A DNA stretch of 64,000 nucleotides from Streptomyces sp. ALI-76-A (lineage in GTDB: Bacteria > Actinomycetota > Actinomycetes > Streptomycetales > Streptomycetaceae), in NCBI RefSeq assembly GCF_030287445.1, contig NZ_JASVWB010000002.1, forward strand, positions 1,240,001 to 1,304,000, read 5' to 3'. Below the pieces are notes generated by a model that had not been told where the DNA came from, ran no database searches, and saw nothing but the letters and a program-made list of their open reading frames with translations. Position 1 is the first letter of the stretch. The number at the start of each line of letters is the position of its first letter. Shown here piece after piece: positions 27,661 to 50,945 of this stretch. The position numbers were made by a program, and so were the translations under genes.

Positions 27661-28773
27661 CTACGCGAGGGCGGTCAGGTAGAAGTCTTCGATCCGGGAG
27701 CTCATCCTCTCCACCCCGTACTCACTGTGCGCGTGTCTTCGCGCGAGCACAGTCTGCTCGGAACCTCGCAGGCGCAATGCCCGAAGGACCCCGGCGACCG
27801 CACTCTCCTCGTCGTCCCCGGCGGTCAGCGTCCCGTACTTGCCGTATCCGAGCAGGTCCGGGACCCCGCCGACGGCGGATGCCACTACCGGCACCCCGCA
27901 CGACATAGCTTCGAGCACCACCCGCGGCGTCGCCTCCGTACGGGACAACAGGACGAGGGCGTCCGCGGCGGCGTAGACCGTACCCATATCCCGCACCAGA
28001 CCTGTGAAGGTGACGCGCCCGCTCAGTCCGCGGCGGGCGGCTTCCTCACGCAGGCTGCCCAGTTGCGGTCCGCAGCCGACGAACAAGGTGTGCACGGGGA
28101 TCTGCCTGCTCCCCAGCACCGCTGCCACCCGCAGGACACGCGAAGGGGCCTTCTCAGGAGCGAGCCTGCCGACGTAGCAGAGAAGCGGAGGAGAGCTGGG
28201 CACGCCGAAGCGCTGCCTCAGTGCCTGCCGTGCCAGGGGCCGCTCGGGCAGGTCCGGCACCTCTACTCCATTTGGTATATAACCGAGCCGAGCCCGCTTG
28301 TTCCAGTGCCGCATCCGGGGCACCAACCCGTCGGCGCAGGCGATGAGTCCGTCCGCCCGGCGCGCTGCCAATGACTCCGCCCGTACGCGCAGCCTCCCGA
28401 CCCACGTGTCCTCGGATGTGCCGTGGTGGGTGAACACGAGGGCCTCGGTGCGGAGTTGACTGCTCAGCATGCACGCGACCGATGCCGCCACCGAGGCCAA
28501 GCCGCCGTGAGCGTGGACGACGTTCGGTCGGTTGTAGTCAGCCGCGCGCATCAGCGTGCGCGCGGCTCCATACGGATCCGGAGCTCCGTGAGGATGCACA
28601 ACCAGTCCCCTCGCGCGGGCACGGACGAAGAACTCCGAATTCCTGCAAGCGATCACGGACGGCCGATGGCCGGCAGCCTCTTGGCAGACCATCAGTTCCA
28701 GTACATGGGTATCCACCCCGCTGAGTTCACCCGGGGCATCACGACTGAGCACGTGCATGATCTGTAGTGCCAT
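27661..28773 (-). CDS. glycosyltransferase family 4
   Basis: 370 residues, GT-B fold, ATG 28773 with GGAAGGA upstream. N-terminal acceptor domain: MHVLSRDAPGELSGVDTHVL and NVVHAHGGLASVAASVA. C-terminal donor domain: LLCYVGRLAPEKAPSRVLRV, TLFVGCGPQLGSLREEA, and the E-x7-E motif region LLSRTEATPRVVLEAMSCG with VPVVASAVGG. It is predicted to transfer a sugar from an NDP- or UDP-donor; the MshA-like layout would fit an N-acetylglucosaminyl donor, but that is inference. Last gene of a minus-strand set with the ROK and DUF5107 genes, 117 bases after the former. Confidence 0.88.
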   Translation of the reverse strand: MALQIMHVLSRDAPGELSGVDTHVLELMVCQEAAGHRPSVIACRNSEFFVRARARGLVVHPHGAPDPYGAARTLMRAADYNRPNVVHAHGGLASVAASVACMLSSQLRTEALVFTHHGTSEDTWVGRLRVRAESLAARRADGLIACADGLVPRMRHWNKRARLGYIPNGVEVPDLPERPLARQALRQRFGVPSSPPLLCYVGRLAPEKAPSRVLRVAAVLGSRQIPVHTLFVGCGPQLGSLREEAARRGLSGRVTFTGLVRDMGTVYAAADALVLLSRTEATPRVVLEAMSCGVPVVASAVGGVPDLLGYGKYGTLTAGDDEESAVAGVLRALRLRGSEQTVLARRHAHSEYGVERMSSRIEDFYLTALA

Positions 28774-28890
28774 CGGTCATTCCTTCCTCGGGCCAAGAGG
28801 TGCTCCGCAGCTTGCCAAGGGGGATTCCTCGCCACTCGCACGGCCTTGCCCGTCGTGGTCGGGCAGGCACGGTCGGAACCCCAGGAAGCA

Positions 28891-29856
28891 CTACCCCTTC
28901 GAGGAATCGCAGAAGGGCCCTGAACCGGGCTCTCTCTTTCCCACGAGGTCCCAGGCCAGCAGCCCCGCCCCGAGGCAGCCAGCGTTGTCTCCCAGCGCGG
29001 CGGCGATCAACGGTGGGCGGTTCTGGAGGCCGCCTCTGTCCGCCACGGCCTGCCGCAATGGAACGAAAAGGGTGTCGCCCGCCTCGGCGAGTCCCCCACC
29101 GATGATCAACGCTTCCGGGTCAAGGAGATTCGCGCACATGATCAGGGCATCCGCGAGCGCGCTCAACCCATCGTCCCATATGGCAGCAGCCCTGGTGTCC
29201 CCTGCCTCCACGGCACGCGTCAGGTCCCGGGCCGAGGCGTTCGGGTCGCCGGTGGCCTGCGCCCAGGCGTGGGCCAGCGCGGCAGCTGAGGAGATCGTCT
29301 CCAGGCAGCCGGACTGGCCGCAGCCACAGGCGCGCCCGCCGGGCCGTACGACGACATGGCCGACTTCCCCGGCGTAGCCGTGGGCTCCTCTCTCGAATCG
29401 GCCGTTGAGGGCGATGGCTGCCGCGATCCCCGTCCCGATCGCCATGAAGAGGAAACGTTCCAGCCCCCTCGCCGCGCCCAGCCTCCCCTCGGCCAGGCCA
29501 CCAACACGCATGTCGTGCCCGATCGCCACAGGTACTCCGCCGAGGCGGTCACCGATGATGCTGCCGATCGGAGTGTCGCGCCAACCGAGATTCGCCGAGA
29601 GGATGACCTCGCCCTGTTGCTCGCAGACCACTCCGGGTACGCCTATGCCCACACCGGCCGGCTCGGAACCGAACACGCGGTTGCCGACCGAACGCAGTTC
29701 ACCAACAAAGTCGACCACGGTCCCTAGCACGGACTCCGGACCGTTCTTCCGGCCCGTGGGGCGCCGTTCCTCATACAGCAACGTGCCGTCCTCGGTGATC
29801 AGGCCCGCTTTCATCAGGGTGCCGCCTACATCTACGGCGATCACATGCCGCACCAT
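28891..29856 (-). CDS. ROK-family sugar kinase
   Basis: 321 residues from ATG 29856 with AAGGAGG ideally placed; a longer frame from 29889 exists but lacks a ribosome-binding site. Phosphate-binding loop IAVDVGGTLMKAGLI, catalytic Asp in VAIGHDMRVGG, ATP-binding FLFMAIGTGIAAAIAL, and the ROK zinc signature CGCGQSGCLE after GEVGHVVVRPGGRA. It probably phosphorylates glucose, N-acetylglucosamine or a related hexose in the cytoplasm. It lies 45 bases after the DUF5107 gene, so they are likely one transcript supplying or recycling a sugar. Confidence 0.9.
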   Translation of the reverse strand: MVRHVIAVDVGGTLMKAGLITEDGTLLYEERRPTGRKNGPESVLGTVVDFVGELRSVGNRVFGSEPAGVGIGVPGVVCEQQGEVILSANLGWRDTPIGSIIGDRLGGVPVAIGHDMRVGGLAEGRLGAARGLERFLFMAIGTGIAAAIALNGRFERGAHGYAGEVGHVVVRPGGRACGCGQSGCLETISSAAALAHAWAQATGDPNASARDLTRAVEAGDTRAAAIWDDGLSALADALIMCANLLDPEALIIGGGLAEAGDTLFVPLRQAVADRGGLQNRPPLIAAALGDNAGCLGAGLLAWDLVGKREPGSGPFCDSSKG

Positions 29857-29901
29857 GACGCCCCTCCTTGTCCGTGGCACACGCCACACCGGCCATCCGT
29901 C

Positions 29902-31917
29902 TCATGAACGCTGAGCACGGAGCTGACTCATAATCAGGGCAGCCCGGTCCATCACGTGCATCCGGAAGTCGTACCGCTGCGGCAGCGGCTTCCCCGGGAA
30001 GACGTCGGCCCATATCCGGGTGAGGCTGTCTTCGCCTTCCCGCAGGTCCTCGACCTCGATCCCATCCTGAAGCAGTCGCGCTGCACGGTCGTTCTCGCCC
30101 GCGACCAAGGCGGCCCGTACCTCAAGAAGCCTCATGCGCCCTCGCTCGCGATGCTCCTCGGGTACCTCTTCCAGGAGACGGAGCGCCCGGCGCCCGTCCC
30201 CCGCCGAGAGGAGTGCTTGGGCCGCCTCCGCTCCGAGCTGCCAGATGGCGGCACCGGCTTTGTGTTCGTGGGCGAGCACTAGGTCCTCCGCCGCCTCCGC
30301 GGACTTGCCTTCGGCACTGCTCACCCAGGCCAACGCCCTGCGTGCCCAGGGGGATTCGGCTTGCTGCAGCGACTCTTCATACAGCTCGCGTGCCCGTACC
30401 AAGTCACCGCGCGCATGGGCGATGACGCCCAGTTGGTAGGAGCGCTGCCAATGAGCGGGGGCGGACTCCAGCAACCCGGTCCATTCCTCGCCGAGGACCG
30501 ACAAGGGCGGCAGGCTGGGCTCCACCGCCGGAAGTGCTCCGGTGACGGCCAACTCCCGCCAAATCTCCTGAAGTTCGCGCATAGCGGACGCGTTGAACGG
30601 TGTGGCGGGAAAGTTGATCTCCAGGTCCCCGGCGGCCGTTCGCCGTAGGCACTCCAGTGCTCCCCACCCGCTGCCGATGGCTACGTGTCGTTCTGGTGGC
30701 CGCTCGGCGAGCTCGTCGTACTCGGTGAGGACCCGCTTCATCCGCTCCGGGGGGCAGACAGAGGGAATGCGGTCAGACACCGCGCCCACCGCGTGGCTCC
30801 AGTTGCTTCCGTGCACGGCGCATCTGTCCGCCTGGACCGGCCCGTAGGTTTCCACCCAAGACAGCATCGACTGCGCGGGCATACGGAGGTGCTCGTACTG
30901 CGTGGCCGTCAGTCCCGCCTGTATCTCGCAGTACGAGGCGAAATCCTCGCCAGAACCGCCCGAATCCGCGGAGCCCCCGCTGATCCACTCCTGCCAGCGC
31001 TGCCCTCCGGCAGACGCTCCCCAGGAGAACATCTTCCGTCCGCCCAGCGCTTGGCTCGATGTATGCAGCAGACCGTATCCCTCGGAGTCCAACGCGGCGA
31101 TCCAGGGCCGGTCGAGTTCGGGCGGCAAGTCGTAGAAGTAGTCGCTGGCATGTGGGATCGCGGCGGGATAGCTGGCGTCCAGGCCGCCGTGGACCGGGAC
31201 GCCCACCGTGTCGAGACGTCCGCTGTAGGAGGCGAAGAACGCCCGGTCAGCGGGCGCGATCACACGCAGTCCCTCGGTCTGCCGGACCGCTGCGTTGGAC
31301 CACCAGTACATGGGGACGTCGTGCCGCTGGGGATTGCGGATCCGTACGCCCATATTGAGCGTATTCGAGTCATCGGGAATCCAGGCGTCGATCTGGAAGA
31401 TGACTCGGCGCATTCGCTCCCATTCCCACATGCGCAGTACGGGTGTCCCGCCGGGACCGGTGACGATCGCGGCGTGCAGCGGCGCGCAAGTGGTGGGCGA
31501 GTGTCCGCGAGTGGAAATGTTCCACTCTACTCCCCCGGCGAACCAGGCATTTCGCAGGCCGAAGTTCGTCGGCTGCAGAACTTTCGGCGTGTGGAGCAGC
31601 TCGCGGCCGGTGGCACGGTCCGTCAACGACCAGAGCCTCCCGCCCAGCCCGGGAAGGAATACGGCACGTAGCGCAGCATTCTCTATCGCCACCGCCTCGA
31701 TCGACGACGGCCGGGGGTCGCGCCGGTAGTTGTCCAGGGGCAGATACGGGAGGATGGAACCGACCCGCCCGTATGCGGCCCCCGCGGCGATCTGCTCCGG
31801 CATGCTCGATACATCGAGCTCATAGGGCTGGCCCAGGCCGGCAAGGGACGGCAGCGGATTCTCTCGCCCCACCTCGGAGACGGGCAGTTCGAGGGTAGTG
31901 CGATAGAGCTCACCCAT
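29902..31917 (-). CDS. DUF5107 protein with TPR-like C-terminus
   Basis: 671 residues. The first ~330 form a galactose-mutarotase-like beta-sandwich (DUF5107): AVFLPGLGGRLWSLTDRATG, FGLRNAWFAGGVEWNISTRG, WIPDDSNTLNMGVRI, MYWWSNAAVRQTEGLRVI. From about residue 470 are tetratricopeptide-like helices: RSYQLGVIAHARGDLVRARE, ARRALAWVSSAEGKSAEAAE, GAEAAQALLSAGDGRRALRL. Carbohydrate binding or processing is expected from the fold, but catalysis is unproven in this family. No signal peptide, so cytoplasmic. First gene of the sugar operon, divergent from the carrier-protein gene. Confidence 0.78.
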   Translation of the reverse strand: MGELYRTTLELPVSEVGRENPLPSLAGLGQPYELDVSSMPEQIAAGAAYGRVGSILPYLPLDNYRRDPRPSSIEAVAIENAALRAVFLPGLGGRLWSLTDRATGRELLHTPKVLQPTNFGLRNAWFAGGVEWNISTRGHSPTTCAPLHAAIVTGPGGTPVLRMWEWERMRRVIFQIDAWIPDDSNTLNMGVRIRNPQRHDVPMYWWSNAAVRQTEGLRVIAPADRAFFASYSGRLDTVGVPVHGGLDASYPAAIPHASDYFYDLPPELDRPWIAALDSEGYGLLHTSSQALGGRKMFSWGASAGGQRWQEWISGGSADSGGSGEDFASYCEIQAGLTATQYEHLRMPAQSMLSWVETYGPVQADRCAVHGSNWSHAVGAVSDRIPSVCPPERMKRVLTEYDELAERPPERHVAIGSGWGALECLRRTAAGDLEINFPATPFNASAMRELQEIWRELAVTGALPAVEPSLPPLSVLGEEWTGLLESAPAHWQRSYQLGVIAHARGDLVRARELYEESLQQAESPWARRALAWVSSAEGKSAEAAEDLVLAHEHKAGAAIWQLGAEAAQALLSAGDGRRALRLLEEVPEEHRERGRMRLLEVRAALVAGENDRAARLLQDGIEVEDLREGEDSLTRIWADVFPGKPLPQRYDFRMHVMDRAALIMSQLRAQRS

Positions 31918-32062: not shown

Positions 32063-32323
32063 ATGCACGTCGAAAGCCGCTTTGACCAGTTCGAACAAAT
32101 ACTGAAGGACACCCTTCCTGAAGCTCCTCCCGCCCGGCTGAACAAGACTGAAAAGCTGGTCGACCTGGGCATGAACTCCTTGCTCCTCATTCAGCTAGTC
32201 GTCCAGCTCGAAGACGCCTTCCGCATTAGCATGCCCGACGATGCGATGACGGCCGAGACATTCGAGTCGGTCGGCTCGTTGTGGGAAGCACTTAGTGAAG
32301 TCCTCGGTCGGCAGGCGCAGTAG
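32063..32323 (+). CDS. stand-alone acyl/peptidyl carrier protein
   Basis: 86 residues. The phosphopantetheine site is Ser39 in VDLGMNSLLLIQLVVQLED, followed by helix II and FRISMPDDAMTAETFESVG. Length and motif fit a free-standing carrier. The cluster's adenylation protein at 48.5 kb has no carrier domain of its own, so this is a plausible partner, holding an amino acid as a thioester for modification or transfer. It is alone on the plus strand, convergent with the aminotransferase gene 50 bases on. Confidence 0.88.
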   Translation: MHVESRFDQFEQILKDTLPEAPPARLNKTEKLVDLGMNSLLLIQLVVQLEDAFRISMPDDAMTAETFESVGSLWEALSEVLGRQAQ

Positions 32324-32373: not shown

Positions 32374-33660
32374 TCAGATGCTGCCGATGAATCTTGCCAG
32401 TCTGTGCGTTCCCTCCTCGATTTCCTCGGCGTCGAGATAGCTGCAGGAGAGCCTAATCTCATTCCTCCCTCTGCCGCCCAGGTAGAAGGGAGACATCGGT
32501 GTCCACAAGACCCCATAACGTGAAGCGGATTCTTTGAGCAATGATTCATTTGCCGACACCGGCAATCGCATTCTGACGAAGAAGCCTCCTTGCGGACGGT
32601 TCCACACCACCTTCGGCGAATGTCCCGGTCCATGGGACAGATGCTCGTCGAGCGCGCCCAGCAAGAGCTGGAGGTTCTGCCGGTAGAGCTCGGACTTCCG
32701 CTGTCCCAGGGCCGCGAACGAACCGCCGTGTTCCAGCAGCATCCCCCCGACAACCGCTTGGCAGATCGGCGAGGTATTCACCGTGACCATGCTCTTAACC
32801 GCCGCGAGGTCGGCCGCCAGCCGGTGCTCGGCACCGTCGTCCGAGCGCACCCGCTGACCGGCCACCACGAAGCCCACCCGCGTGCCCGGCAAACACAGCT
32901 TCGCGAACGTGCCGATGAAGAGCACTCGCTGGGGGGCGAGCGACTTTAGCGTGGGCAGCTCGGCTCCTGGTGCCGTGGTGAATCCATAGGCGTTGTCCTC
33001 GATGAGCAGCAACTCCCGGCGGGCCGCGAGGTCAACGAGACGGTGCCGGGCCTCCCGCGGCATCACTGTCCCCGAGGGGTTCGAGTGGTCCGGCGCGACA
33101 TAAAGCGCCCTGATCCGCCGGCCGGTGGCCTCTGCTGCGTCGCACTCAGCGTCGAGCCGGTCCACGTCGACCCCCGACTCCCCTTCGTCCACCGGGACCA
33201 TCTCGATGCCCAGCAGCTCTGCCGCGCCCATGATGCCGACGAACGATGGATTGACCACGGCGAGCAGGTCGCCGGGCGAACGGAACAGGGCACGCAAGGT
33301 GATCAGGAACGCCTCCTGCGCCCCGACGGTCACAACCACGTCGTCCGGAGTCGTCTTTGTTCCGAGGGCTGCACACAGGGCGTCAGCGATCAGGTCATTG
33401 ATCAGGCCGGCGGTCGGCCCGTATTCGTAGAGCAGTTGGCGGGCGCCGTCCTCACTGAGCCCCCATGCGCCCCGCGCATGCGTAAGCCAGCGCACTACGC
33501 TGCGTTCGAGGTCGGTCTCCGCGACGTACCTTGTGTGAGGCGCCCCGGGCGCGAACGAAATGGCGTCCGGGTAGCGGGACATCACCTCGTTGAGGAAGGG
33601 GATAGCCCCCAGCACCGGGCTCGCCAGCGACGGGTGCAGGCTCTCTAGTGGCAACTCCAT
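32374..33660 (-). CDS. hpgT: PLP aminotransferase, 3,5-dihydroxyphenylglycine-forming type
   Basis: 428 residues, fold type I aminotransferase (class I/II, MocR-like catalytic domain). YEYGPTAGLINDLIADAL at the N side, VVVTVGAQEAFLITLRAL, APDHSNPSGTVMPREAR (Asn), LLIEDNAYGFTTAPG (Asp), PLP-binding Lys in LFIGTFAKLCLPGTRVGF, and the terminal Arg in NEIRLSCSYL. In Dpg pathways this enzyme aminates 3,5-dihydroxyphenylglyoxylate made by DpgC to give the phenylglycine. Its ATG follows the dpgC stop directly (TAG-ATG), so the two are translationally linked. The assignment rests on context as well as fold. Confidence 0.8.
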   Translation of the reverse strand: MELPLESLHPSLASPVLGAIPFLNEVMSRYPDAISFAPGAPHTRYVAETDLERSVVRWLTHARGAWGLSEDGARQLLYEYGPTAGLINDLIADALCAALGTKTTPDDVVVTVGAQEAFLITLRALFRSPGDLLAVVNPSFVGIMGAAELLGIEMVPVDEGESGVDVDRLDAECDAAEATGRRIRALYVAPDHSNPSGTVMPREARHRLVDLAARRELLLIEDNAYGFTTAPGAELPTLKSLAPQRVLFIGTFAKLCLPGTRVGFVVAGQRVRSDDGAEHRLAADLAAVKSMVTVNTSPICQAVVGGMLLEHGGSFAALGQRKSELYRQNLQLLLGALDEHLSHGPGHSPKVVWNRPQGGFFVRMRLPVSANESLLKESASRYGVLWTPMSPFYLGGRGRNEIRLSCSYLDAEEIEEGTHRLARFIGSI

Positions 33661-35031
33661 CTACGGCCTCCCTTCCTGCCCGTGGGCCGGGCGGGACCAG
33701 GAGCGGCCGACCTTGTCGAGCACGTCGTCCGCATAGAGCCGTACGGCCTGCTCGTAGGCGAACTCCGCCAGGTACGTCCGCAGCGCGTACCTGGGTTCCT
33801 CGGCCAGGCTGAGCATCCGCCGGTTGGCCACCACGGCCGGGTTGTCCAGGCGCAGCGCCGCGGCCCGGGCAACGTCGCCGACGTTCCCCGCGGGAACTAC
33901 CTCGTCGCACACCAGGTGCGCCTCCGGTGCGGCACTCCGGATCCGGTGCCCACCAAGGATGATCCGGCGTGCCAGGCGGCTGCCGGTGAGCCGCCCGAGC
34001 CGCAGGTTCCCCAGACCGGGGACGATCCCTTCCTGGGCTGCGGGCAGGCTGAAGTAGGCGTCGTCCGCCGCCACCACCCAGTCCGCGGCGAGGACCAACT
34101 GCATCCCGCCGCCGATCGCGAAAGAGTCCACGGCCGCCACCCAGGGCTTGTGCAGGCTCCCTTCGTTGAACGGCGCGTCAGGGTCGATAAGCAGACCGTG
34201 GATCATCTTGCTGATGTAGCCGAGCTCCCGGCCCATCAGGAAGTCCACGAAGCTGATGCGGCCCGCGTGGAGCTCGCGCAGGTTGATCCCGGCGCTGAAG
34301 ACCCGTTTGCCGCGGTATCGCGGATGGCTCATGATGCCTCCGCGCATCACCCCCACATGGACGTGATCGTCTAGCAGCACGAGATCGATCGCCGTCTCCA
34401 TGTCGTGGATCAGCTGGTCGTCCTCTGCGTTGAGGCAGTGGTCGTTCTGGAAGGTGAGGTCGGCGATGTTGCCGTGCCGTTCGAGCTTGAGCGCGTCGAA
34501 TTCCAGGACTCCGTCCTGGCGGAAGGTGTCCAGCAGCTCCATGGCCCGTGGCGTCGCCATCCGCATAGCATCCATCAGGTGCGTGCCGGCCACCGGCGAG
34601 GCGAGAATGCCGCGCAGGAAGATGCCTTGGTCTATTTCCAGGCCGTCCTTGTCCGACTGCGGACGTGCGCGTTCCGCCGCGATTTGGTCGCGTGCCGGCG
34701 CGAGCCCGGGAAACCTCTCCGCCGCGGCGTGGACGAGGTCGGGCAGGCGGCGGTGGAGTGTGCGGTCTTCGGTCAGCATGTCGTAGATGCGCTCGGCGTG
34801 TTGGCTTACGAAGCGGGTACGGGCGCTGCGCTGGGCGCCCAGGACGCTGGCGGCCACTGACTGCTCTGCTTGGGTGCGTTTCGGCTTCGGCGGCAGCCCG
34901 GCCAGCAGGTGGTCTCCGGAGGCCAGATACGTGGTGAGTTCTTCGGCGCTGTCCAGCAGTTCCGTGCCGGAGGGAGGCGGAATGGCCCGCCACAGCTCCA
35001 CCTGCTCCAGCAGTGGTACGTCGCTGGTCAC
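33661..35031 (-). CDS. dpgC: DpgC, 3,5-dihydroxyphenylacetyl-CoA dioxygenase
   Basis: 456 residues with the crotonase fold and the long helical N-terminal extension typical of DpgC. Oxyanion-hole segments are RGGIMSHPRYRGKRVFSAGI and SFAIGGGMQLVLAADWVV, with YFSLPAAQEGIVPGLGNLRL. The cofactor-free enzyme uses O2 to convert 3,5-dihydroxyphenylacetyl-CoA to 3,5-dihydroxyphenylglyoxylate with release of CoA. The GTG start overlaps the dpgB stop as GTGA. The order dpgA-B-C-aminotransferase is as in glycopeptide-type Dpg loci, without dpgD. Confidence 0.92.
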   Translation of the reverse strand: MTSDVPLLEQVELWRAIPPPSGTELLDSAEELTTYLASGDHLLAGLPPKPKRTQAEQSVAASVLGAQRSARTRFVSQHAERIYDMLTEDRTLHRRLPDLVHAAAERFPGLAPARDQIAAERARPQSDKDGLEIDQGIFLRGILASPVAGTHLMDAMRMATPRAMELLDTFRQDGVLEFDALKLERHGNIADLTFQNDHCLNAEDDQLIHDMETAIDLVLLDDHVHVGVMRGGIMSHPRYRGKRVFSAGINLRELHAGRISFVDFLMGRELGYISKMIHGLLIDPDAPFNEGSLHKPWVAAVDSFAIGGGMQLVLAADWVVAADDAYFSLPAAQEGIVPGLGNLRLGRLTGSRLARRIILGGHRIRSAAPEAHLVCDEVVPAGNVGDVARAAALRLDNPAVVANRRMLSLAEEPRYALRTYLAEFAYEQAVRLYADDVLDKVGRSWSRPAHGQEGRP

Positions 35032-35777
35032 CTGACCTCCTGTGCGGAAGCCCCGTCGGACGCGTCGGCCATTTCGTCAAGCGACGGCGCAGCGGCGGCT
35101 AAGCGGCGCAACTCACGGTCACAGGCGGCTAAATGGACACCCAGGGCCTCCTCGAAGCTCGTATGGGAGGCTTCGAGCAGCAATTGGCGCCGCATCGCTT
35201 TGTCATGGCCTGCTTCCCGGCCCAGCATCACGGCCGCCGCCGACACCGCCTGGTCCACGTCGGTGGTGATTTCGTCGACGAGACCCAGTTCCAGGGCCCG
35301 CTTTCCCGGAATGTCATGGCCCCAGAGCACCAGCTGCCGGGCGTGGGCGCCTCCTACCTGATGGACGAGCCGGTGCATCACCATGCCTGGCCAGAACTGT
35401 CCATTGTTCACAGGCAGGACGATCCGCAGATCCGCTGTCGCGATGCGGTAGTCGGCGGCGAGCAGGAGATCCAGGGCGGGTCCGCAGCTGGTGCCGCGGG
35501 CGACGGCGACGCTGACGGCAGATAGCCGTTCTAGGCGTCGTACCGCGCGCTCCCACCGGTTCATGTCATGGGTACCTGCCGTTCCGGGCCAGGCCCCGGT
35601 TCTGGGCTTGTCCCCGCCGATGCGCAGGACGACCACGGCCACGCCAGGTTTCGCCTCTGCCTGGTCGCAGAGGTCATTGAGCGCCTGGACGCATCCGCCG
35701 GGCGGGCCCTCGTCGCCCACGTCCAGACAGAAGCCGATGCCGCTGGTCAGCTCTTCCATACCGTCTCCGCCGTGCAT
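35028..35777 (-). CDS. dpgB: DpgB-like enoyl-CoA hydratase family protein
   Basis: 249 residues, crotonase superfamily. VAVVVLRIGGDKPRTGAWPG, then VSVAVARGTSCGPALDLLLA in the first oxyanion region and GQFWPGMVMHRLVHQVGGA in the second. DpgB assists the type III PKS DpgA in dehydration/aromatisation to 3,5-dihydroxyphenylacetyl-CoA. Start ATG 35777 has GGGAGCG upstream; a second ATG at 35759 with GGCGGAG is an equal candidate. 27 bases follow the dpgA stop. Confidence 0.85.
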   Translation of the reverse strand: MHGGDGMEELTSGIGFCLDVGDEGPPGGCVQALNDLCDQAEAKPGVAVVVLRIGGDKPRTGAWPGTAGTHDMNRWERAVRRLERLSAVSVAVARGTSCGPALDLLLAADYRIATADLRIVLPVNNGQFWPGMVMHRLVHQVGGAHARQLVLWGHDIPGKRALELGLVDEITTDVDQAVSAAAVMLGREAGHDKAMRRQLLLEASHTSFEEALGVHLAACDRELRRLAAAAPSLDEMADASDGASAQEVR

Positions 35778-35804
35778 GCCACGCTCCCCGCGCTATGTCA
35801 TCCG

Positions 35805-36860
35805 TCACCAATGAATCAGGGCCAGCTCCACCGTCGATCCGGGCCCCATGGTCATCATCACTCCGTAGTCACCGGCCGCCGCGACGCGTTCGTCCAGCAG
35901 GCGCTCGTACGAAAACAGGAAGGAACCGCTCGACAGGTTTCCGTAGTCCCGCAGCACGCCGGTCGTGTGGCGTACGTCGTGGCGGGTCAGACCGAGGTTG
36001 ACGCGCACCGAGTCGATCACCTTCTTGCCACCGGAATGAATGATCCAGTGCGCGATGTCCGAGGGCCGCAGGCCCTTGCCCTCAAGGAGCCTGGCGAGGG
36101 GCTCCTCAACGTTCGCTCCCACCACGTACGGCACGTCCCGGTCCAAATAGAAGCTGAACCGTCCCTTCTCGTCGTCCCAGTCGTAGCGCATCGCGTCAAC
36201 GGCGTCCGGGACGATCCAGCTGGCGAAGTTCTCGATGGCTGGCCCCGGCCCCGAACCGTCGCGGCGCGCTGTTAGTGCCAACGCCGCCGCGCCGTCGCCG
36301 AACAGGCTGTTCACCACTGACGTGCGCATCGTCCCGTCGAAGGCGTATGCGGCCGAGCAGACCTCGATGCACACCATCAAGGCCAGCTCCCCGGGGTGCG
36401 CACTGACCCATCCCGCCACCGCGTTGAGCGCGTTGAGTCCGGCGTTGCAGCCCATTCCCACCACGTCGACGCGGGCGCAGTCCCTGCGCATGCCGAGCTC
36501 CTTGATCAGCAGCGCGCTGAACCCCGGCGTCATGAAGCCCGTCGAGGAGACGCAGCACAGGTAGCCCACGTCGTCCAGGCCAGCGTTGGCCCTTTTCAGG
36601 GCGGCCTCGATCGCCGTGCGTCCGATGTCGAGGCCGTACGCGGAGTGCTTGGCAAGGAGGTCCTTCTGTGTCTCCTCGATCCAGCCGTCCGGTCCCGCAC
36701 CGGGGAGGACCAGATGACGGCGCGCTATACCGCTGTTGAGGAACACCGACCTGATGCGCTCGTCCGGGACCTCGATGCGTTCCAGTACCTCCTCCTGCGT
36801 GTAGGAGGACGGAGGCACGCCGGTCCCCACCCCCGAAATCCGCGGAACTAATCCGTCCAC
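35805..36860 (-). CDS. dpgA: DpgA, type III polyketide synthase
   Basis: 351 residues. Chalcone-synthase-like ketosynthase: nucleophile Cys in VDVVGMGCNAGLNALN, His in HWIIHSGGKKVID, Asn in RDYGNLSSGSFLFSYE, plus SLFGDGAAALALTA. The protein is closest in motif style to DpgA, which condenses four malonyl-CoA to 3,5-dihydroxyphenylacetyl-CoA without a separate starter. GTG start at 36860, 18 bases after the amidinotransferase stop. Part of a seven-gene operon. Confidence 0.93.
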   Translation of the reverse strand: MDGLVPRISGVGTGVPPSSYTQEEVLERIEVPDERIRSVFLNSGIARRHLVLPGAGPDGWIEETQKDLLAKHSAYGLDIGRTAIEAALKRANAGLDDVGYLCCVSSTGFMTPGFSALLIKELGMRRDCARVDVVGMGCNAGLNALNAVAGWVSAHPGELALMVCIEVCSAAYAFDGTMRTSVVNSLFGDGAAALALTARRDGSGPGPAIENFASWIVPDAVDAMRYDWDDEKGRFSFYLDRDVPYVVGANVEEPLARLLEGKGLRPSDIAHWIIHSGGKKVIDSVRVNLGLTRHDVRHTTGVLRDYGNLSSGSFLFSYERLLDERVAAAGDYGVMMTMGPGSTVELALIHW

Positions 36861-36878
36861 GTCGTCACCGCCGGCGCG

Positions 36879-38036
36879 TCATCGCAGGTATTCCTCCGGA
36901 CCGCCTTCCCTGACCGTGTCGAGCGTGAAGCAGTGAAAGCCTCCGCCGAACAGGCGCCGGTGCCGGTGCCGGACAGGTACGACCGTGAACTTGTGCTGTT
37001 CGAGGGTGCGTATCAGCTCTGGGCACGCGTCGTTCACCAACACAGTGTCGGGGCTGACCGACAGCACGTTGAGGTCGATGAAGGGGCTGGTGAGGATGAG
37101 GTCGTCGTCCTCGTACCGAGGGAACTGGTTCTCACCGGGGGCTGGCGGGACGATCATGTCCCAGGATCGCAGCGCCTCGGGAAGGAAGTCCGCGACCTCC
37201 TTGGAGCGCACCAGCAGGGTTCCCGGACGCAGGGCGAGGACCATGCTGTCGATGTGGCTGTCGCTGAGTCGGTGGACACGGTGGATACGGAACCGTCCTT
37301 CGAGGTGCCGCTCCAGCCAGTCACAGGCCAGTGCGTGGTTGTCGGTCGAAACGTTGACGATCAGGTCCCGTCCCAGGCGCAAACACTGCGCTCCGTCGAA
37401 CATCATCTCGAAACCGACGTCGTACGGCGAAAGCTGCGGGTCCTTGATGGGTTCCATCGGGCCGCCGGCCGTGGCGGATTCCGCGTAGGAGAGGTCGAAC
37501 GAGGCGTCGGTCATCAGGGGCCGCGGCATGACGCTCCACCGTGCGCCCTGCCGGAAGTATTCTGCAAAGACCTTGGTGAGCAACTGGGTCTCGAAGTACC
37601 TCGACCGGATCATGGGGGGCGTCTCGATGATCTCGTCTCCGAGGATCAGCGTGTTGTCACGGATGTTCAGAGGCGGCACCACCGCGGCGGACCAGGCTGG
37701 AGTCCGTACCTCGGTGCTCTCCGGGGCGAGGGCCATCGGGCGCAGCACCTTGACGCCCAGCGCCTCCAGCGCCTGCACCATCCCCTCCAGGTCCTCGTTG
37801 AGTTCGTCCACGTAACGTTGCTTGATCGGGACACGGCCACTCTTCTGCCCGCCCGATCCGGTCCCGCCGGGTACGGATAACCGCGGGTAGTACCACTCGG
37901 AGCGGGTGATGTTGTCGTGGAAGAACAGGTCAAAGGACAGCTCGCGTTCGTGGGACGTGTAGTTGAGTGCCGATCCCACGACGGCCTCTTTGAGCGGCGA
38001 CCATTCATCGAAGCTGTTCAGATGCATCCGGCTCAC
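36879..38036 (-). CDS. amidinotransferase (guanidino group transfer)
   Basis: 385 residues, glycine-amidinotransferase/StrB1 beta-propeller family. SFDEWSPLKEAVVGSALNY at the N terminus, AWSAAVVPPLNIRDNTLILG, catalytic His in HRLSDSHIDSMVLALRPG, and nucleophile Cys in LFGGGFHCFTLDTVREG at the C terminus. Transfers an amidino group, normally from arginine, to an amine. Next to the dpg genes the likely acceptor is the alpha-amine of a dihydroxyphenylglycine, as in the 2-guanidinoacetate units of pheganomycin and resorcinomycin. 41 bases after the ligase gene. Confidence 0.9.
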   Translation of the reverse strand: MSRMHLNSFDEWSPLKEAVVGSALNYTSHERELSFDLFFHDNITRSEWYYPRLSVPGGTGSGGQKSGRVPIKQRYVDELNEDLEGMVQALEALGVKVLRPMALAPESTEVRTPAWSAAVVPPLNIRDNTLILGDEIIETPPMIRSRYFETQLLTKVFAEYFRQGARWSVMPRPLMTDASFDLSYAESATAGGPMEPIKDPQLSPYDVGFEMMFDGAQCLRLGRDLIVNVSTDNHALACDWLERHLEGRFRIHRVHRLSDSHIDSMVLALRPGTLLVRSKEVADFLPEALRSWDMIVPPAPGENQFPRYEDDDLILTSPFIDLNVLSVSPDTVLVNDACPELIRTLEQHKFTVVPVRHRHRRLFGGGFHCFTLDTVREGGPEEYLR

Positions 38037-38077
38037 TCTCCATCTCTCATGGGCGGTCGGGGACTCGGGCTTCCCCG

Positions 38078-39385
38078 TCAGAACAGTGCTTCGACGACGT
38101 CCTGCTGGGCCCTGCCGGCCTCGACGCTCCGGGCGACGATGCAGTAGCGGATGGAGCTGTTCGTGGGGTTGTAGGGCATGATTAATACGACGCCGCAGCG
38201 CGTGTCCGGGTCATACAGCAGTCCCTTGCCGGAGAGAGCGTCGATGGCGGACCGGAAGGACGGCACAGGCCAGCCCTCGCGCTCCAGGAGGATGCGTTCC
38301 CGGGCGTAGTCCTTGCCTACGAGCTGGGCCCCGATGATGCCGTACACATGCGTGGAGCCGGTCACGCGGGCGTTGTACTCGGTGAACAGGAGCCGTTCGT
38401 CCGGGGTCACGACGGCGTCGGCACTGAGCAGCCCGCGGTAGCCGAAAGCTTGGAGCGGGGCGCAGAGCTTGCGTCCCCCCTCCAGCAGTCCGTCCAGCAC
38501 CCGTTCCGTGAGGTCGGGCGCCGGGATGATCTCAGCGGCGGCCAGTGGCGCCGATATCATCTCGCCTTGCGCGGCGAACTCGACGCCGTCGTCCGACAAC
38601 GCGAACTCGGCGAAGACCGCGCGGCTGTCGGGGATGTACTCCTCGACCACGACCGGGTTCTTTCCCTGACTGCTCAGCCAGTCCCACCGCGTGCCCAAGT
38701 AGGCCCGCAGCGCCGAGGGCTCGGGCACCACGACGGTGCGGTGCGCGCCTACGGGCAGGACGCCTTCGACTGGGCTCAGGATCTCGTTTCCCCGTCCCCC
38801 CGCTCGGAACTCGTGCTTCAGAATGACGGATTTGCCTTGGAAAAGCAGGTGCCCGATCAACGCGTCGGCCTCCGGCACGTTCGTACACACCCCGCCCTCG
38901 GGCAACGGGATACCCGTGCCGCCCGCGATGGCACGGAAGGCGGGCTTGCTGTTCACCAGTCGGCCACCACCCTGTGCGAGGAAGCCGTAACCGGGCAGCG
39001 CCGACTCCACTCCGAGTGCCCGTGCCAGCCGAGCGACGGAGGCGTCCGGGTGCAGGAAGAACACCTCGTCGACCGGCCGTTCGCCGAGTACGGTCCGCAG
39101 CTCGGCGAGAAAGGAGGGGGCCACCAAGCGATCTGCGCTGAGCACCGCCACGCCCATGGAGCCCGGGGGCGGCACCACGATCGTCAGCGCTTCGGGCCGC
39201 GCTCCTGTCAACGAGGTTACATAGCGCAGGTATTCCTCATCCGGGGCAACCGCCATGACCAGAACGTCATGGTCCCGAGCGAACCAGATCAGTCGCTGGG
39301 TCCACCAGGCGGTCTTCTTCTGCCTCGCATCAGCCAGGGCGGCGCTGTCCTCGTTGAACTCATTGCCGATCAGCAGTCTTGGCAC
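38078..39385 (-). CDS. PGM1-like ATP-grasp peptide ligase
   Basis: 435 residues. Pre-ATP-grasp domain with LLIGNEFNEDSAALADARQK and QTRLIWF-type start, then SKPAFRAIAGGTGIPLPEGG, ATP-grasp lysine strand VILKHEFRAGGRGNEILSPV, hinge VVVEEYIPDSRAVF, and metal-binding end LLFTEYNARVTGSTHVYG. In pheganomycin biosynthesis PGM1 activates a guanidino-phenylglycine carboxylate as acyl-phosphate and joins it to the N terminus of a peptide; the resorcinomycin homologue uses glycine. Here the same role is likely because the amidinotransferase and dpg genes follow in one operon. I find no precursor peptide nearby, so the amine partner is open. Confidence 0.82.
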   Translation of the reverse strand: MPRLLIGNEFNEDSAALADARQKKTAWWTQRLIWFARDHDVLVMAVAPDEEYLRYVTSLTGARPEALTIVVPPPGSMGVAVLSADRLVAPSFLAELRTVLGERPVDEVFFLHPDASVARLARALGVESALPGYGFLAQGGGRLVNSKPAFRAIAGGTGIPLPEGGVCTNVPEADALIGHLLFQGKSVILKHEFRAGGRGNEILSPVEGVLPVGAHRTVVVPEPSALRAYLGTRWDWLSSQGKNPVVVEEYIPDSRAVFAEFALSDDGVEFAAQGEMISAPLAAAEIIPAPDLTERVLDGLLEGGRKLCAPLQAFGYRGLLSADAVVTPDERLLFTEYNARVTGSTHVYGIIGAQLVGKDYARERILLEREGWPVPSFRSAIDALSGKGLLYDPDTRCGVVLIMPYNPTNSSIRYCIVARSVEAGRAQQDVVEALF

Positions 39386-39433
39386 GCAGATATACCTTTC
39401 CCCTTGACACGGGTCTGGGCCCGGCTCGGCCGG

Positions 39434-39949
39434 TCAATGCTGTGCGCGCTCGTGGATTCCTCGCACGAAGAGAGCCTGTCCGGCGTGCTGGAGGTTGTCG
39501 CTCAAAACACTCACGAGACGGACGCCCACGCTGACCGCGGGCGTATAGGAGTAGTCGAGGAGCCGGTCGAGTTCGGCGGATTCGAGTTCGGCGAGATAGC
39601 CAAAGGTCCGCGTCATGACAGTGTCGTGATAGGCGAGAAGGCCGTCCGGAGACGGGGGTTGAATCGCCGCGACTTCAGCGGGCCCATCCCCTTGCCCGCG
39701 ATCGGTCACATCCCTCTCGATGCCAGTACGGGTTTTCCACGTCGGATCGGACCAGATTTCCGGAGCCGCCAAGATATCGGCGACATGGTTATCTTGAATA
39801 CGCGTCAGATGCCAGACGAGCCAGGCAATAGAGTTCGTAGCCGCACTGATCCGAAAGGCCAGGGCACTAGCATCTAGCCCTTCTGCGGCATCGTGAACGA
39901 GCTTGTTGATTCGACCGTACGCTTCGGTGAGAACCAGTCCAGGCGTCAC
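39434..39949 (-). CDS. DinB-superfamily (possible thiol-dependent) protein
   Basis: 171 residues, four-helix DinB/YfiT fold. Metal-ligand pattern: His in IAWLVWHLTRIQDNH and His in LSDNLQHAGQALFVRG. In actinobacteria DinB proteins include mycothiol-dependent isomerases and S-transferases, such as the lincomycin enzyme LmbV; others are of unknown role. Start ATG 39949. It is the first gene of the dpg/ligase operon and its upstream region is cut 69 bases away by an IS1182 element, which may affect expression of the whole operon. Confidence 0.72.
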   Translation of the reverse strand: MTPGLVLTEAYGRINKLVHDAAEGLDASALAFRISAATNSIAWLVWHLTRIQDNHVADILAAPEIWSDPTWKTRTGIERDVTDRGQGDGPAEVAAIQPPSPDGLLAYHDTVMTRTFGYLAELESAELDRLLDYSYTPAVSVGVRLVSVLSDNLQHAGQALFVRGIHERAQH

Positions 39950-40023
39950 GGGAATCTTTGTACCATACAGCGTGACGCCGCCAACACCCTACTAGATGAA
40001 TGAGTCCGATGTCTTCATTGAGC

Positions 40024-41595
40024 GACTCTGTCGGGGATCTTGGAGTTCTCAGGACAGGGGCTTTCGGTGGTTGGAAACGCTTCGGACGGTCCTGCGTGGT
40101 TCCGTCCTCCTGAGGTGATCAGTGTCCGTTCGTCCCCGGTCCGGTGCAGTAGTTCCCGAGCTCACAGCCCGGATGGCGCGGGCCAGCAACCCCCGCGGCG
40201 CCACGGCAATGTGGGTACGTGATCACCTCGACGGGCTCTGGGACCACAGGGACTTCGCCTCCTGGTACCCGCGCGACGGCCGCCCCGGACTCTCGCCGGC
40301 CCAACTCGCCACGGTCTGTGTCCTTCAGTTCTTACTCAACCTCTCCGACCGGCAGGCGGCCGAGGCGGTGCGATGCCGCATCGACTTCAAGTACGCCCTG
40401 GCCCTGGAACTGGACGACCCGGGGTTCCACCACAGCGTGCTGACCGACTTCCGTGATCGTCTGTGCGAGGACGATCGCGCGGACCAGCTGCTGTCCCTGT
40501 CGCTGGAGCGGATGCGGGCGGCCGGCCTGGTCACTGAGCGCGGGAGACAGCGCAGTGACTCCACCCAGGTCCTCGCTGCCGCACGGGACCTCACCCGCCT
40601 GGAGCTGGTCCTCGAAGCAGTACGCGCGGCGTTGGAGGAAGCCGCTCAGCGGGCACCTGAGGTCCTGGACGGGCTGGTGGATGCTGAGTGGGCCACCCGC
40701 TACGGGCGTCCGGTGCGCCTTCCCAGCCAGCCGACTCACCCCGTCACCCGGCTCAAACAGGCCGGCGCGGACGCCCGCCGACTCCCGGAACGCTTGACGC
40801 CCCACCAGCGCGGTCCTCGCGCGGAAGCACTACGGCAAATCGTGGTGCAGAACTTCCTCCTCGACGCCCGTGGCAGGTTACGCCCGCGCACCGAGAAGGA
40901 CGGACAGCCCAAAGGGGCCTTGCGGATCGTCACTCCCTACGACTGCGAAGCCCGCCGAGCCATCCGGGGCAATACCCGCTGGAGCGGCTATCTGGTCCAT
41001 GTCACCGAGACCTGCGATACCGGCGCCCAGGCCAACCTGATCACGGACATCGCCACCACCAAGCCGACCCGGGACACCGAGGCCCTCCCTGGCATCCACG
41101 CCCAACGGCGAGACCAGCCACATCTGGCTCGAGCCACCGGCCATGGCGCCCTGCACCGTGGCCCGGTTCCACCCACACCAGTGCAACCCGTGCCCCGACC
41201 GGTCTGCCTGCACCCGCGGCACCGCCGCCCGCACCGTGAACTTCCTCCCCCGCCCCCTCCACGAGCTCCAGGCTCGAAACCGCACAGACCAGCAAGACCC
41301 CCAGTGGAAACGGCTCTACGCCACCCGGTCCGGCGTCGAAGGCTCCATCTGCGAGTTCATCAACGGACACCAGGCCCGACGCAGCCGCTACCACGGCATC
41401 GCAAGACACACGTGCAGCGCGTCCTGACCGGCATCGCGATCAACATCGAACGCCTCGCCTCACGCACAACTCAACACCCCCACCGCCCTCGCTCCCCCAC
41501 GACCTTCCAGCAGTACCTCAACACCCGTGGCCTGACCTGGGAATGCTGGTGGCGACAAGGAAAATGAGGTCACGCTCAAGATCCCCGACAGAGTC
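40024..41595 (+). mobile_element. IS1182-family element
   Basis: Perfect terminal inverted repeats GACTCTGTCGGGGATCTTG at 40024-40042 and complement ending near 41595. They extend outward as TGAGC/GCTCA, suggesting a short palindromic target. About 1.57 kb. The same end sequence recurs at 54113. Confidence 0.82.
40122..41567 (+). pseudogene. IS1182 transposase, multiply frameshifted
   Basis: N-terminal part intact: LDGLWDHRDFASWYPRDGRP, LSDRQAAEAVRCRIDFKYAL, QRSDSTQVLAAARDLTRLEL (first Asp). The frame shifts near 41100 to SHIWLEPPAMAPCTVARFHP, then RSGVEGSICEFINGHQARRS (Glu), and again near 41405 to RVLTGIAINIERLASRT at the end. At least two indels, so inactive. Confidence 0.85.
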
Positions 41596-41597
41596 GC

Positions 41598-42470
41598 TCA
41601 GTGGTCGTACGCGATCAGCGAGCGTTTGACCGTTGCTCCGGTGTGCCAGTTGTGCCAGATCGCGGTGGCCAGGGCGAGCAGGCGTTGGGCGGTGCGGGCG
41701 AAGACTCCGGCCGGGGTTCTGCCTCCGTGCTGTTCCAGGCTGAGCTGGCCCTTGAGGGTGTCGATGACGGCCTCGATTCACTGGCGGACACGAGCGATCT
41801 TGCCGAAGCGGGCCGGTTCGTCCTTGCGGTCCGGCCGCACCAGGTGAGCGCCGAGCCGGTCGGTGACGAAGGCTTCGAACTCCCGGCCGGCGAAGCCCTT
41901 GTCGGCCAGGATCACCTGCCCGGCCCGGGTCAGGTGGTGGTCGCGTTCCAGCAGAGCAGCCATCACCTCTCGTTCCCCGAGTTCGGGATTGGCCAGGCAC
42001 CAGGTGACGGGCATTCCCTCGGCGGTGGTGACCAGGTACAGGCGAAAGCCCCAGAAGTAGCGGGAGTGGCTGCGGCAGTAGCCGTATCCGGCGTGCCCGG
42101 CCAGGTCGGAGCGTTTGACGGTCTCGCGGGAGGCGGCGCAGGGCAGGGGGGTGGAGTCGATCAGCCGGCGGCTGGCGTGCCAGGTCGGCACCTGCCGGGC
42201 GAGCATCTCGATCACGTGGCTGATCAATGGTCCTGCGGCGTTGAGGCGCTTGTTGTAGGCCGACTGCTGGGGCAGGTAGCGGAAGAGGTGGCCGAGCCGG
42301 GCGTGGGCGAAGCGGATCCAGTGCCGGGCGGAGGGGAAGCCGAGCAGGACCTGGGCGACCGCCAGGAACAGCAGTTCGGCGAGGCAAGCCGCGGCGGGCG
42401 GCCGCGCCGGGTTTCGCCGTCGAGGGCCAAAGCTCCTGTGAGGGCATCCAGTTGTTGCCGGGACATCCCG
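41598..42470 (-). pseudogene. IS982-type transposase with nonsense codon and broken 5' end
   Basis: Central part reads LLFLAVAQVLLGFPSARHWI, RRLIDSTPLPCAASRETVKR (Asp), GYGYCRSHSRYFWGFRLYLV, QVILADKGFAGREFEAFVTD (Asp), then RVRQ-TGA where the family has Trp, followed by IEAVIDTLKGQLSLEQHGGR (Glu) to LIAYDH. The 5' part is out of frame around 42390. A point nonsense plus a frameshift, so inactive. Confidence 0.75.
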
Positions 42471-42479
42471 GTCAGGGCG

Positions 42480-43510
42480 GGATCGGACAGCAGGGCCTGG
42501 TCCCACCGCGGGGCCGGCGCCTGCGGAGACCCGGCCGCCGGAACGGCTGGGCGGGGCTGCGGATGCAGGGCATAGTTCCAGTCGCCGTGGATGCGTGTCG
42601 GGTCAGTGGCAATGCAGCCATCTCGGCGTCATCGATTCGGACTCCGGTGGGATAGGCATTGGTGTCGAGTGCGGCACTCACGTGCAGTCCGGTGCGGGTG
42701 GTGGTCGCGGCGATGGACTGGACTGGACGATGACTTCGTGGCTGGTCAGCGGGCGGCCGCGCCAGTTCATGTTGATCCAGCCGGTGTCCGCCGCCAGATC
42801 GTAGATGCCGTAGGGGACGGCCTTGCCCAGCTGCGGGTCGGCGAAGTCATGCACGCTCACCAGCACCGGCTCACCGGTCGGCCGCCACTGACGGCCGTTG
42901 TTCTTGAACTCGCCAACGAGCTCCTTCTTCTTGGTGTCCACGCTGATCACCGGCTGGCCGGTCTCCCGGTGCTCGCGGGCCTGCTCATTGAGATAGCGGA
43001 ACTGGGCATCCCGGTCCGGGTGCTGGCTGCCCTCGATCGTCTTGGCGTTGGCCTGCAGGCTGAACCCTTCCTCTCGCAGCAGGCCGGCGACGGTGTCGGC
43101 ACTGACGCGGTGTCCGGCCCGGGTCAGCTCCTGCGCAAGCGTGCGGGTGGACTTCACCGTCCACCGCAGCGGCGACATCGGGTCACCCCGCTCGTCCGGC
43201 TCGACCAGTGCCAGCAGTGCGGGCCGCAGCCCGGGGTCGAGGTCCGCGACCCCGTTTACGTCCTCCACCTGGCCGCCGGACCCTCCCCAGCGGGGCCTCG
43301 CCAGCCTCCAGCTCGAACACACCCTTGCGGATCGTCGTCTCGCTCACCCCGGCCGCCCGTGCGACGGCCCGGACGCCGCCGCGTCCCAGCAGCCGGGCCT
43401 CCGCTGCCATCAGCAAGCGTCGCTGCCGCTCGTCGAGATGCGGAAACAACACAGCAAACTTCACAGCTAGTTGGGCACGAGTCTCGTCCGGGATGCGCTT
43501 ACCACACCAA
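42480..43510 (-). pseudogene. ISAzo13-type transposase with internal deletion
   Basis: Reads leftward from about 43510: LAVKFAVLFPHLDERQRRLL, a frame change near 43270, then RTLAQELTRAGHRVSADTVA, QPVISVDTKKKELVGEFKNN (Asp) and AVPYGIYDLAADTGW. That runs directly into INMNWRGRPLTSHEVIVQS, which normally lies more than 100 residues further on, so the middle catalytic part is deleted. A further frame change leads to LDTNAYPTGVRIDDAEMAAL and HGDWNYALHPQP. Confidence 0.72.
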
Positions 43511-43841
43511 CGAGCTTCAGGACGGGAAGCAACACCTTGATTCCCTGCAAGCCCTAAGCACACGGCCCTGGGGCACTACATGGCCTCAGGAGCACCACCT
43601 CAGTCGCGCCGCGGGGACATGACGTACGGCGTATTGATCGCACGGATGTTCTCTGCCATGGTAAGGAAAGGCATGCTGGCAAGGCCAGCACACTCGGACC
43701 ACGGTCCGACGGTTCAGCGTGAGGCCGAACCCTAAGGCCCGCAGGCCCTCGGCGGTGCCTTGGGGCGCACTAACCCCGCCTACACAGCGCGGAATTGCGG
43801 GTTCCGGATCCCAAATGTGGTCCCAACGGGAGAGGAAACAC

Positions 43842-44885: not shown

Positions 44886-44912
44886 CTGTGCCCACCGCTG
44901 CCGGGTGTCCGT

Positions 44913-46133: not shown

Positions 46134-46398
46134 GCGCCGATTGTAAGTGAAGAACCGGCACCGGTACAGATACCAGGCAAGAGCGCTAGGAGTCCGACTA
46201 CAGGCGTTCGCGTATTTACGGCACCACGGCATCCATGAACCGCACGGCACCGCAAGCGGCAGCCTGACTTTTAGGGAGAAAGGACGGCCTTCGGAGCAGT
46301 TTTGGTCCGCGGTTCGCGATCTCGCGCCAGACACAAGTTGCGAGCGAGGCTGCCTCCGAACCTCGAACACAGCAGCTGCAGTGACAGGAGGGACTGAC
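46134..46398. promoter_or_regulatory. divergent promoter region, P450 / PLP enzyme
   Basis: 265 bases between divergent genes, comparatively AT-rich around 46140-46300. No clear palindrome. AGGAGGGA at 46386-46393 is the ribosome-binding site of the rightward gene. Confidence 0.35.
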
Positions 46399-47601: not shown

Positions 47602-47621
47602 GAGGCCGACGTGTCCCCGTG

Positions 47622-50920: not shown

Positions 50921-50945
50921 CCTCACTCCTGCCGGTTTCATCTCC

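Follow-up and report, generated by a model that had tools for sequence, protein, structure and literature searches.

A gene cluster with a pheganomycin-type core and an added adenylation domain, carrier protein and mycothiol-type genes in Streptomyces sp. ALI-76-A

Streptomyces sp. ALI-76-A carries a gene cluster in which the probable enzymes for a guanidino-dihydroxyphenylglycine and a PGM1-type ATP-grasp peptide ligase occur together with a stand-alone adenylation (A) domain, a discrete carrier protein and genes of mycothiol-related families. The stretch of DNA analysed, hereafter the window, comprises 64,000 nucleotides (contig NZ_JASVWB010000002.1, positions 1,240,001 to 1,304,000), and the cluster occupies 32063-54017 with 17 genes (Table 1). 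Seven minus-strand genes run from 39949 to 32374 and encode, in this order, a DinB/mycothiol-S-transferase (MST) family protein, the ligase, an amidinotransferase, DpgA, DpgB, DpgC and an aminotransferase. From the aminotransferase to the DinB gene the intergenic gaps are 0, -4, 27, 18, 41 and 48 bp, dpgC abutting the aminotransferase gene and overlapping dpgB by 4 bp. A preliminary description of this DNA had placed dpgA-B-C, the aminotransferase, the amidinotransferase and the ligase in one tightly spaced operon; all of these genes lie where it put them, with no gap above 48 bp. Its range of 32374-39949 suits the operon but not the cluster, whose true span is 32063-54017 and includes a carrier gene (32063-32323) that it missed. 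Beyond the DinB gene, a 3.9-kb gap holding an IS1182-like insertion sequence (IS) separates the operon from the right-hand genes, which encode a methyltransferase, a cytochrome P450, a PatB-type lyase, an alpha/beta hydrolase, the A domain, a PIG-L protein, an amidohydrolase, a MarR-type regulator and a major facilitator superfamily (MFS) exporter.

Table 1. Genes of the cluster and the insertion element within it, with window positions, strand and principal evidence; percentages are identities.
Feature	Position	Strand	Evidence and remarks
Discrete carrier protein, 86 aa	32063-32323	+	PF00550, 4.5e-10; convergent to aminotransferase; 50% to G654 carrier
Aminotransferase (for guanidino acid)	32374-33660	-	PF00155
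dpgC, dihydroxyphenylacetyl-CoA dioxygenase	33661-35031	-	NF042432 over cut-off, 576.3 vs 530 bits
dpgB	35028-35777	-	NF042431 over cut-off, 230.7 vs 140 bits
dpgA, type III polyketide synthase	35805-36860	-	NF042429 over cut-off, 594.7 vs 425 bits
Amidinotransferase	36879-38036	-	1bwd and SxtG matches, ~6e-46; 77.7% in G654
PGM1-type ATP-grasp peptide ligase	38078-39385	-	PF18604 and PF18105 (both PGM1 Pfam domains)
DinB/mycothiol-S-transferase family protein	39434-39949	-	NF047843 'mycothiol transferase', 182.6 vs cut-off 170 bits
IS element	40016-41603	+	27-bp inverted ends and IS1182-like transposase frame; within cluster, outside pathway
Methyltransferase of pheganomycin-type clusters	43842-44885	+	PF00891; start uncertain, frame opens 43719
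Cytochrome P450 of pheganomycin-type clusters	44913-46136	-	PF00067; start uncertain
PatB/MalY-type C-S lyase (putative)	46399-47601	+	start uncertain, frame opens 46147; 54.5% in G654
Alpha/beta hydrolase	47622-48431	-	PF00561; 46.9% to N-terminal part of G654 hydrolase-DinB fusion
Stand-alone adenylation domain, weak MbtH-like N-terminus	48550-50274	+	PF00501; PF03621, 27.9 bits; TIGR01733 over cut-off
PIG-L/LmbE-fold hydrolase	50234-50920	+	PF02585; overlaps A-domain gene; frame opens 50192; 57.5% in G654
Metal-dependent amidohydrolase, Xaa-Pro dipeptidase/ochratoxinase group	50946-52112	-	PF01979; 3be7, 2.6e-41; 53.4% in G654
MarR-type regulator	52270-52770	+	PF12802
MFS exporter	52761-54017	+	PF05977, PF07690; frame opens 52617

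The operon very probably encodes a supply of dihydroxyphenylglycine (Dpg) bearing a guanidino group. The products of dpgA, dpgB and dpgC exceed the NCBIfam equivalog cut-offs, and the ligase matches the PGM1 structure 3wvq with an E value of 1.9e-132. The amidinotransferase resembles inosamine-phosphate amidinotransferase (1bwd) and SxtG equally well and possesses the motifs GGGFHC and HIDS, with no Pfam or NCBIfam match. The aminotransferase is nearest to MocR/PdxR- and MppQ-type models, far under their cut-offs, and is 57-61% identical to its relatives in the two plasmid clusters described below and 53.6% identical to that in the genome G654. A search of the strain's own genome found no match to DpgD above cut-off. 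In G654 (L123:17085-17894) and in locus L007 (4604-5443), dpgA and the amidinotransferase gene are separated by a further enoyl-CoA-hydratase-type gene, which the window does not have at that place. Overall, a guanidino-Dpg core of the product is very probable.

The decisive relative is the cluster in G654, a genome of another family whose ligase is identical to that of Verrucosispora sp. WMMD573 (P0013). Of the 17 window genes, 15 have relatives there, lying together in a different order, which indicates that rearrangement has not broken up the set. The ligases are 59.4% identical, and the values for DpgA, DpgB, DpgC, the A domain and DinB are 66.8, 53.9, 55.5, 50.6 and 66.9%, respectively. 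The overlap between the A-domain and PIG-L genes is common to both clusters, while in G654 the alpha/beta hydrolase and the DinB/MST protein are fused in a single frame of 447 aa (L124:888-2231). The two window genes without a match around the G654 ligase are those for MarR and the MFS exporter, and both adjoin the ligase on a plasmid of S. decoyicus (NZ_CP108348.1, L110), where the relatives are 77.6 and 47.8% identical, respectively.

This arrangement bears on the question of whether the window holds two unrelated clusters brought side by side by insertion elements, as the 3.9-kb gap with its IS element and transposase debris might suggest. G654 interleaves members of both halves, and the idea was rejected on that ground. 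Additionally, the methyltransferase and P450 of the right half occur in Dpg/ligase clusters, and MarR and MFS genes adjoin the S. decoyicus ligase, making two separate clusters extremely unlikely. The 17 genes at 32063-54017 are thus almost certainly one biosynthetic gene cluster. Family membership and co-conservation also show the Dpg, aminotransferase and amidinotransferase genes as the source of the guanidino acid, the methyltransferase and P450 as those of the pheganomycin type, and the PGM1-type ligase as the enzyme for the amide.

The G654 cluster also has genes of its own. They encode an S66 peptidase, two glycosyltransferases, a carrier-equipped A-like protein, another carrier, E1-alpha, E1-beta and E2-type proteins and two putative ABC transporters, of which Pfam confirms one. 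Because of these additions, its product is probably larger than that of the window. The E1-alpha, E1-beta and E2-type genes and a carrier (L124:8351-11470 and 13877-14182) are arranged as if a two-carbon unit were loaded onto the carrier.

Known clusters account for part of the gene set. A pheganomycin-type cluster on an S. globosus plasmid (NZ_CP030864.1, L111) shares dpgA-B-C, the aminotransferase, the amidinotransferase, the ligase, the methyltransferase and the P450, and its core adjoins a radical SAM (S-adenosylmethionine) enzyme and a gene annotated 'pheganomycin family RiPP precursor'. This supports the preliminary description, which took the operon to be of this type. The methyltransferase is 62.5, 56.8 and 54.8% identical to its relatives in S. 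decoyicus, S. globosus and G654, and the P450 57.4, 56.0 and 56.7%. Since both genes are present with the core on the S. globosus plasmid and in surveyed loci, they belong to the known type. The DinB and right-hand genes had been taken as a sign of a further product; this is supported by their co-conservation in G654, but the methyltransferase and P450 have to be subtracted as members of the known set. The S. decoyicus cluster, which is linked to nonribosomal peptide synthetase (NRPS) genes, shares the core, methyltransferase, P450, MarR and MFS. It differs in having several large adenylation-domain proteins and a ferredoxin, and in its 41-kb stretch no match to DinB, PatB, PIG-L or the amidohydrolase was found at E <= 1e-3.

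The S. globosus cluster differs from the window in its ribosomal precursor, radical SAM methyltransferase and two ABC transporters. Used as a query, its precursor finds relatives in loci L011 and L006 and nothing in the window at E <= 1, although a precursor of other sequence could be missed, and the motif NVKD is absent from all six frames of the window. Likewise, its radical SAM C-methyltransferase finds L011 (97%) and L006 (77%) and nothing in the window at E <= 1. Conversely, the window adds the carrier, A domain, DinB, PatB, hydrolase, PIG-L and amidohydrolase, none of which has a match in the S. globosus cluster at E <= 1e-3.

The distribution of these genes was surveyed at 61 named loci that encode a related ligase; the flanks taken reached 10 kb at most on either side, and genes farther out are not counted. 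In tblastn searches (E <= 1e-8), 17 of the 61 loci have a DpgA relative with 60% identity or more, 13 a methyltransferase with 50% or more and 10 a P450 with 50% or more, two of the latter over short stretches. A second survey at E <= 1e-3 covered 71 stretches: the 61 loci, the two plasmid clusters and eight genome stretches, among which L123 and L124 represent G654 and three or more duplicate named loci. In this set DinB, PatB and the amidohydrolase are each matched in G654 only. In addition to their matches in G654, the carrier has one across 47 residues in L001, the hydrolase has matches across 76 residues in three loci, and PIG-L has weak ones in L003 and L007. The PIG-L genes of these last two loci were rejected as having the same role, being only 25-27% identical. 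In L007 the PIG-L gene lies with carbamoyltransferase, DegT and polysaccharide-type genes, which L003 shares by clustering. These two Dpg/PGM1-type loci, with a DegT aminotransferase, a carbamoyltransferase and a different PIG-L, are probably another, sugar-bearing variant.

In the genus of the window, related ligases occur at E <= 1e-90 in 16 of 392 genomes, its own included, and none outside that genome exceeds 53% identity. Among genomes around a Micromonospora genome, 11 of 300 have one at E <= 1e-100, including G654 (60%), and in another family, sampled around G393, the figure is 2 of 250 (48-51%). The best match outside the strain's own genome is P0004 (67%). A maximum-likelihood tree of 68 ligases groups the window ligase with P0004 and G654 in a 19-row clade (support 100/99), within which its place is not fixed; Streptomyces sp. 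LZ34, Streptomyces sp. GMR22 and Dactylosporangium sp. CA-233914 are among the other members. The ligases of L111, L011 and L006, the loci with a precursor and radical SAM gene, form a separate clade with L014 and P0045. Another clade comprises the Dpg/PGM1-type clusters L004, L005, L008-L010, L012, L013 and L017, in which NRPS-type A-domain genes lie close to the ligase, and another contains eleven of the loci L019-L033 without Dpg matches in their flanks. In L009 the ligase is surrounded by a condensation-adenylation-carrier protein, a carrier and a condensation domain.

These comparisons make it very unlikely that the window holds an ordinary cluster for pheganomycin or resorcinomycin, the other genes being passengers. 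The core, methyltransferase and P450 common to the S. globosus cluster would fit such an explanation. Against this, neither the precursor nor the radical SAM enzyme was found in the window by the searches above, the ligase belongs to a clade other than the pheganomycin-type one, and the added genes are kept in G654. Near-identity to a published cluster, which the preliminary description had named as the case against novelty, was checked and rejected: the ligase is 49% identical to that of S. globosus, and its best relative with an organism name reaches 65%. The gene combination was not reported in the titles and abstracts searched, a search outside which most subscription papers lie, including the pheganomycin report, nor is the cluster reported for four named strains among the literature matches listed. 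It is best described as a variant within the pheganomycin/resorcinomycin kind whose combination of genes is apparently new.

Based on this evidence, a pathway can be proposed, to which as a whole (guanidino-Dpg, glycine and a sulfur from mycothiol) we assign a probability of roughly 45%. The products of dpgA-B-C, the aminotransferase and the amidinotransferase would supply guanidino-Dpg. The methyltransferase and P450 may then methylate and oxidise ring position 4, as suggested by the acid of pheganomycin, which PMC8939145 gives as a 4-hydroxymethyl compound. The PGM1-type ligase would form the amide, while MarR would serve for control and the MFS protein for export.

The amine partner would be provided by the stand-alone A domain, which may load glycine on the discrete carrier. 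A scan of 39000-58000 for carrier motifs found none; the carrier sits outside that stretch. Read by eye from the translations, the A-domain codes are D-I-L-Q-L-G-V-I-W in the window and D-I-L-Q-L-G-M-I-W in G654. Both resemble codes of the glycine type. In an alignment, the window code agrees at only about half of its positions with that of the second LgrA domain, which is presumably glycine-specific. It is fairly likely that the A domain loads glycine. If it does load glycine on a carrier, the partner of the guanidino acid would be glycine or a glycyl-carrier, not a ribosomal peptide. In the predicted guanidino-Dpg joined to an amine, the core is supported, whereas glycine as the partner is read by eye from the A-domain code. 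Resorcinomycin is a guanidino-phenylglycine joined to glycine; the window product would have the guanidino acid in common with it, and also the glycine should the code be read correctly.

The remaining genes suggest a parallel with lincomycin. The lincosamide synthetase uses a stand-alone A domain and a carrier protein (PMC4351081), and the lincomycin route proceeds by mycothiol exchange (LmbV), amide cleavage (LmbE), deacetylation and beta-elimination (LmbF) (PMC5518657, PMC4351081). The lincosamide cluster, too, brings together an A domain, a carrier, DinB-type and PIG-L-type proteins and a pyridoxal phosphate (PLP) enzyme. Sulfur steps are proposed for the window because its DinB, PIG-L, amidohydrolase and PatB proteins could cover this series. 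DinB/MST would add mycothiol to an electrophile made by the P450, possibly a quinone methide of the hydroxymethyl resorcinol, PIG-L and the amidohydrolase would cut the conjugate back to one of cysteine, from which the PatB-type lyase would free the thiol. Unlike in the lincosamide system, no amino-octose is involved, and the amide would come from an ATP-grasp ligase.

Several features are consistent with this route. DinB is over the MST cut-off and matches the MST structure 8fx9 (E 8.1e-31), although it fits the role of LmbV at the family level only (NF047843, 8fx9). A second DinB copy, 47% identical, lies elsewhere in the genome, for which reason the cluster copy appears to be a dedicated one. 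Of 248 relatives, 164 have a DinB match (E <= 1e-30), as do 119 of 394 genomes of the class (E <= 1e-35), the two samples overlapping, and the best outside the window among the matches listed is 50% identical; plasmid searches returned four records for DinB and two for PIG-L, all below 60%. The genome has an Mca over the model cut-off, so mycothiol metabolism is likely in the strain. The solved structures nearest to PatB are C-S lyases, foremost the putative beta-cystathionase 3fdb (4.4e-88), and its best match outside the genome is P0084 (61%). Its only other relative in the genome at E <= 1e-20 (C4:100768-101919) is 41% identical and has an in-frame TGA. DinB, PIG-L, PatB and the amidohydrolase each have the residues expected of their catalytic motifs.

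Other findings weigh against a mycothiol route. PIG-L is not Mca-like: the Mca model, run on the strain's genome, does not match it. Its predicted model is closest to LnmX and diacetylchitobiose deacetylase; that no Mca structure came up in the fold search with this model carries no weight. This sets it apart from LmbE, which is 32% identical to Mca (PMC4351081). The lyase is of the MalY/PatB type, and at 300.8 bits it falls under the TIGR04350 cut-off of 340, its putative activity being assigned from its fold and best matches. The amidohydrolase belongs to a group that cleaves amino-acid amides. The same cluster might then make a product without sulfur, in which DinB is a metal-dependent isomerase or a transferase of another group, PatB a PLP enzyme whose substrate is glycine or the guanidino acid, and in which protecting or acyl groups are taken off by PIG-L and the amidohydrolase. 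The DinB family does include isomerases (PMC4351081). Because DinB exceeds the MST cut-off, the nearest solved PatB structures are C-S lyases and all four families for mercapturate-type processing are kept in G654, this alternative is considered unlikely. The sulfur route via mycothiol itself is tentative, its chances falling somewhat short of even.

PIG-L relatives of 41-48% identity are found at 29 other Streptomyces loci, and no other cluster gene was found with them in these short stretches, about 3.7 kb long in the five whose length was given.

Alternatively, DinB, PIG-L, the amidohydrolase and PatB might protect the producer by clearing reactive intermediates as exported mycothiol conjugates, the active product being free of sulfur. 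There is a precedent in granaticin, whose mycothiol conjugates are regarded as the producer's detoxification products (PMC8733708), and the cluster contains an MFS exporter. However, housekeeping copies of MST and Mca lie elsewhere in the genome, the excretion of mercapturates needs no C-S lyase, and 11 of 13 methyltransferase genes of Dpg-bearing relatives come without the four genes. Self-protection is therefore improbable as their role.

Mobile elements lie in and around the cluster. The inverted ends of the IS element (40016-40042 and 41577-41603) are 96% identical, its transposase scores 147 bits against NF033551, below the cut-off of 270, and further frames in the 3.9-kb gap look like transposase debris. 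On the left, a group II intron reverse transcriptase/maturase (23425-25074, RVT_1 and GIIM) lies amid transposase genes. The left border (27661-31917) encodes a GT4 glycosyltransferase, a ROK-family protein and a DUF5107/TPR protein, which were excluded from the cluster because no convincing relatives were found in G654. The glycosyltransferase (27661-28773) was considered as a partner of PIG-L and not supported, its best E value in G654 being 1.9. The right flank (54032-60137) holds more transposase-like frames and a frame that by eye resembles a serine recombinase (58581-60137).

The PGM1-type ligases were found joining guanidino-phenylglycine to ribosomal peptides. Here the same acid supply occurs without the pheganomycin-type ribosomal part having been found, alongside an A domain, a carrier protein and genes of the mycothiol type, in a cluster kept across two families. 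Biarylitide precursors are also seen with such ligases (PMC13417212). If the proposed sulfur route is true, the cluster would be a further example of lincomycin chemistry with its parts within one 22-kb stretch and with a natural fusion of hydrolase and DinB in another genus, which together would make each step testable. The broader proposal is unlikely, namely that this is a second system besides the lincosamides in which NRPS-style loading of glycine is joined with mycothiol sulfur, on a guanidino-Dpg and with a ligase using carrier-bound glycine, as a sulfur-bearing family in Streptomyces and Micromonosporaceae. The cluster would also add a partner system for PGM1-type ligases to pheganomycin-type precursors, biarylitide precursors and NRPS-linked clusters.

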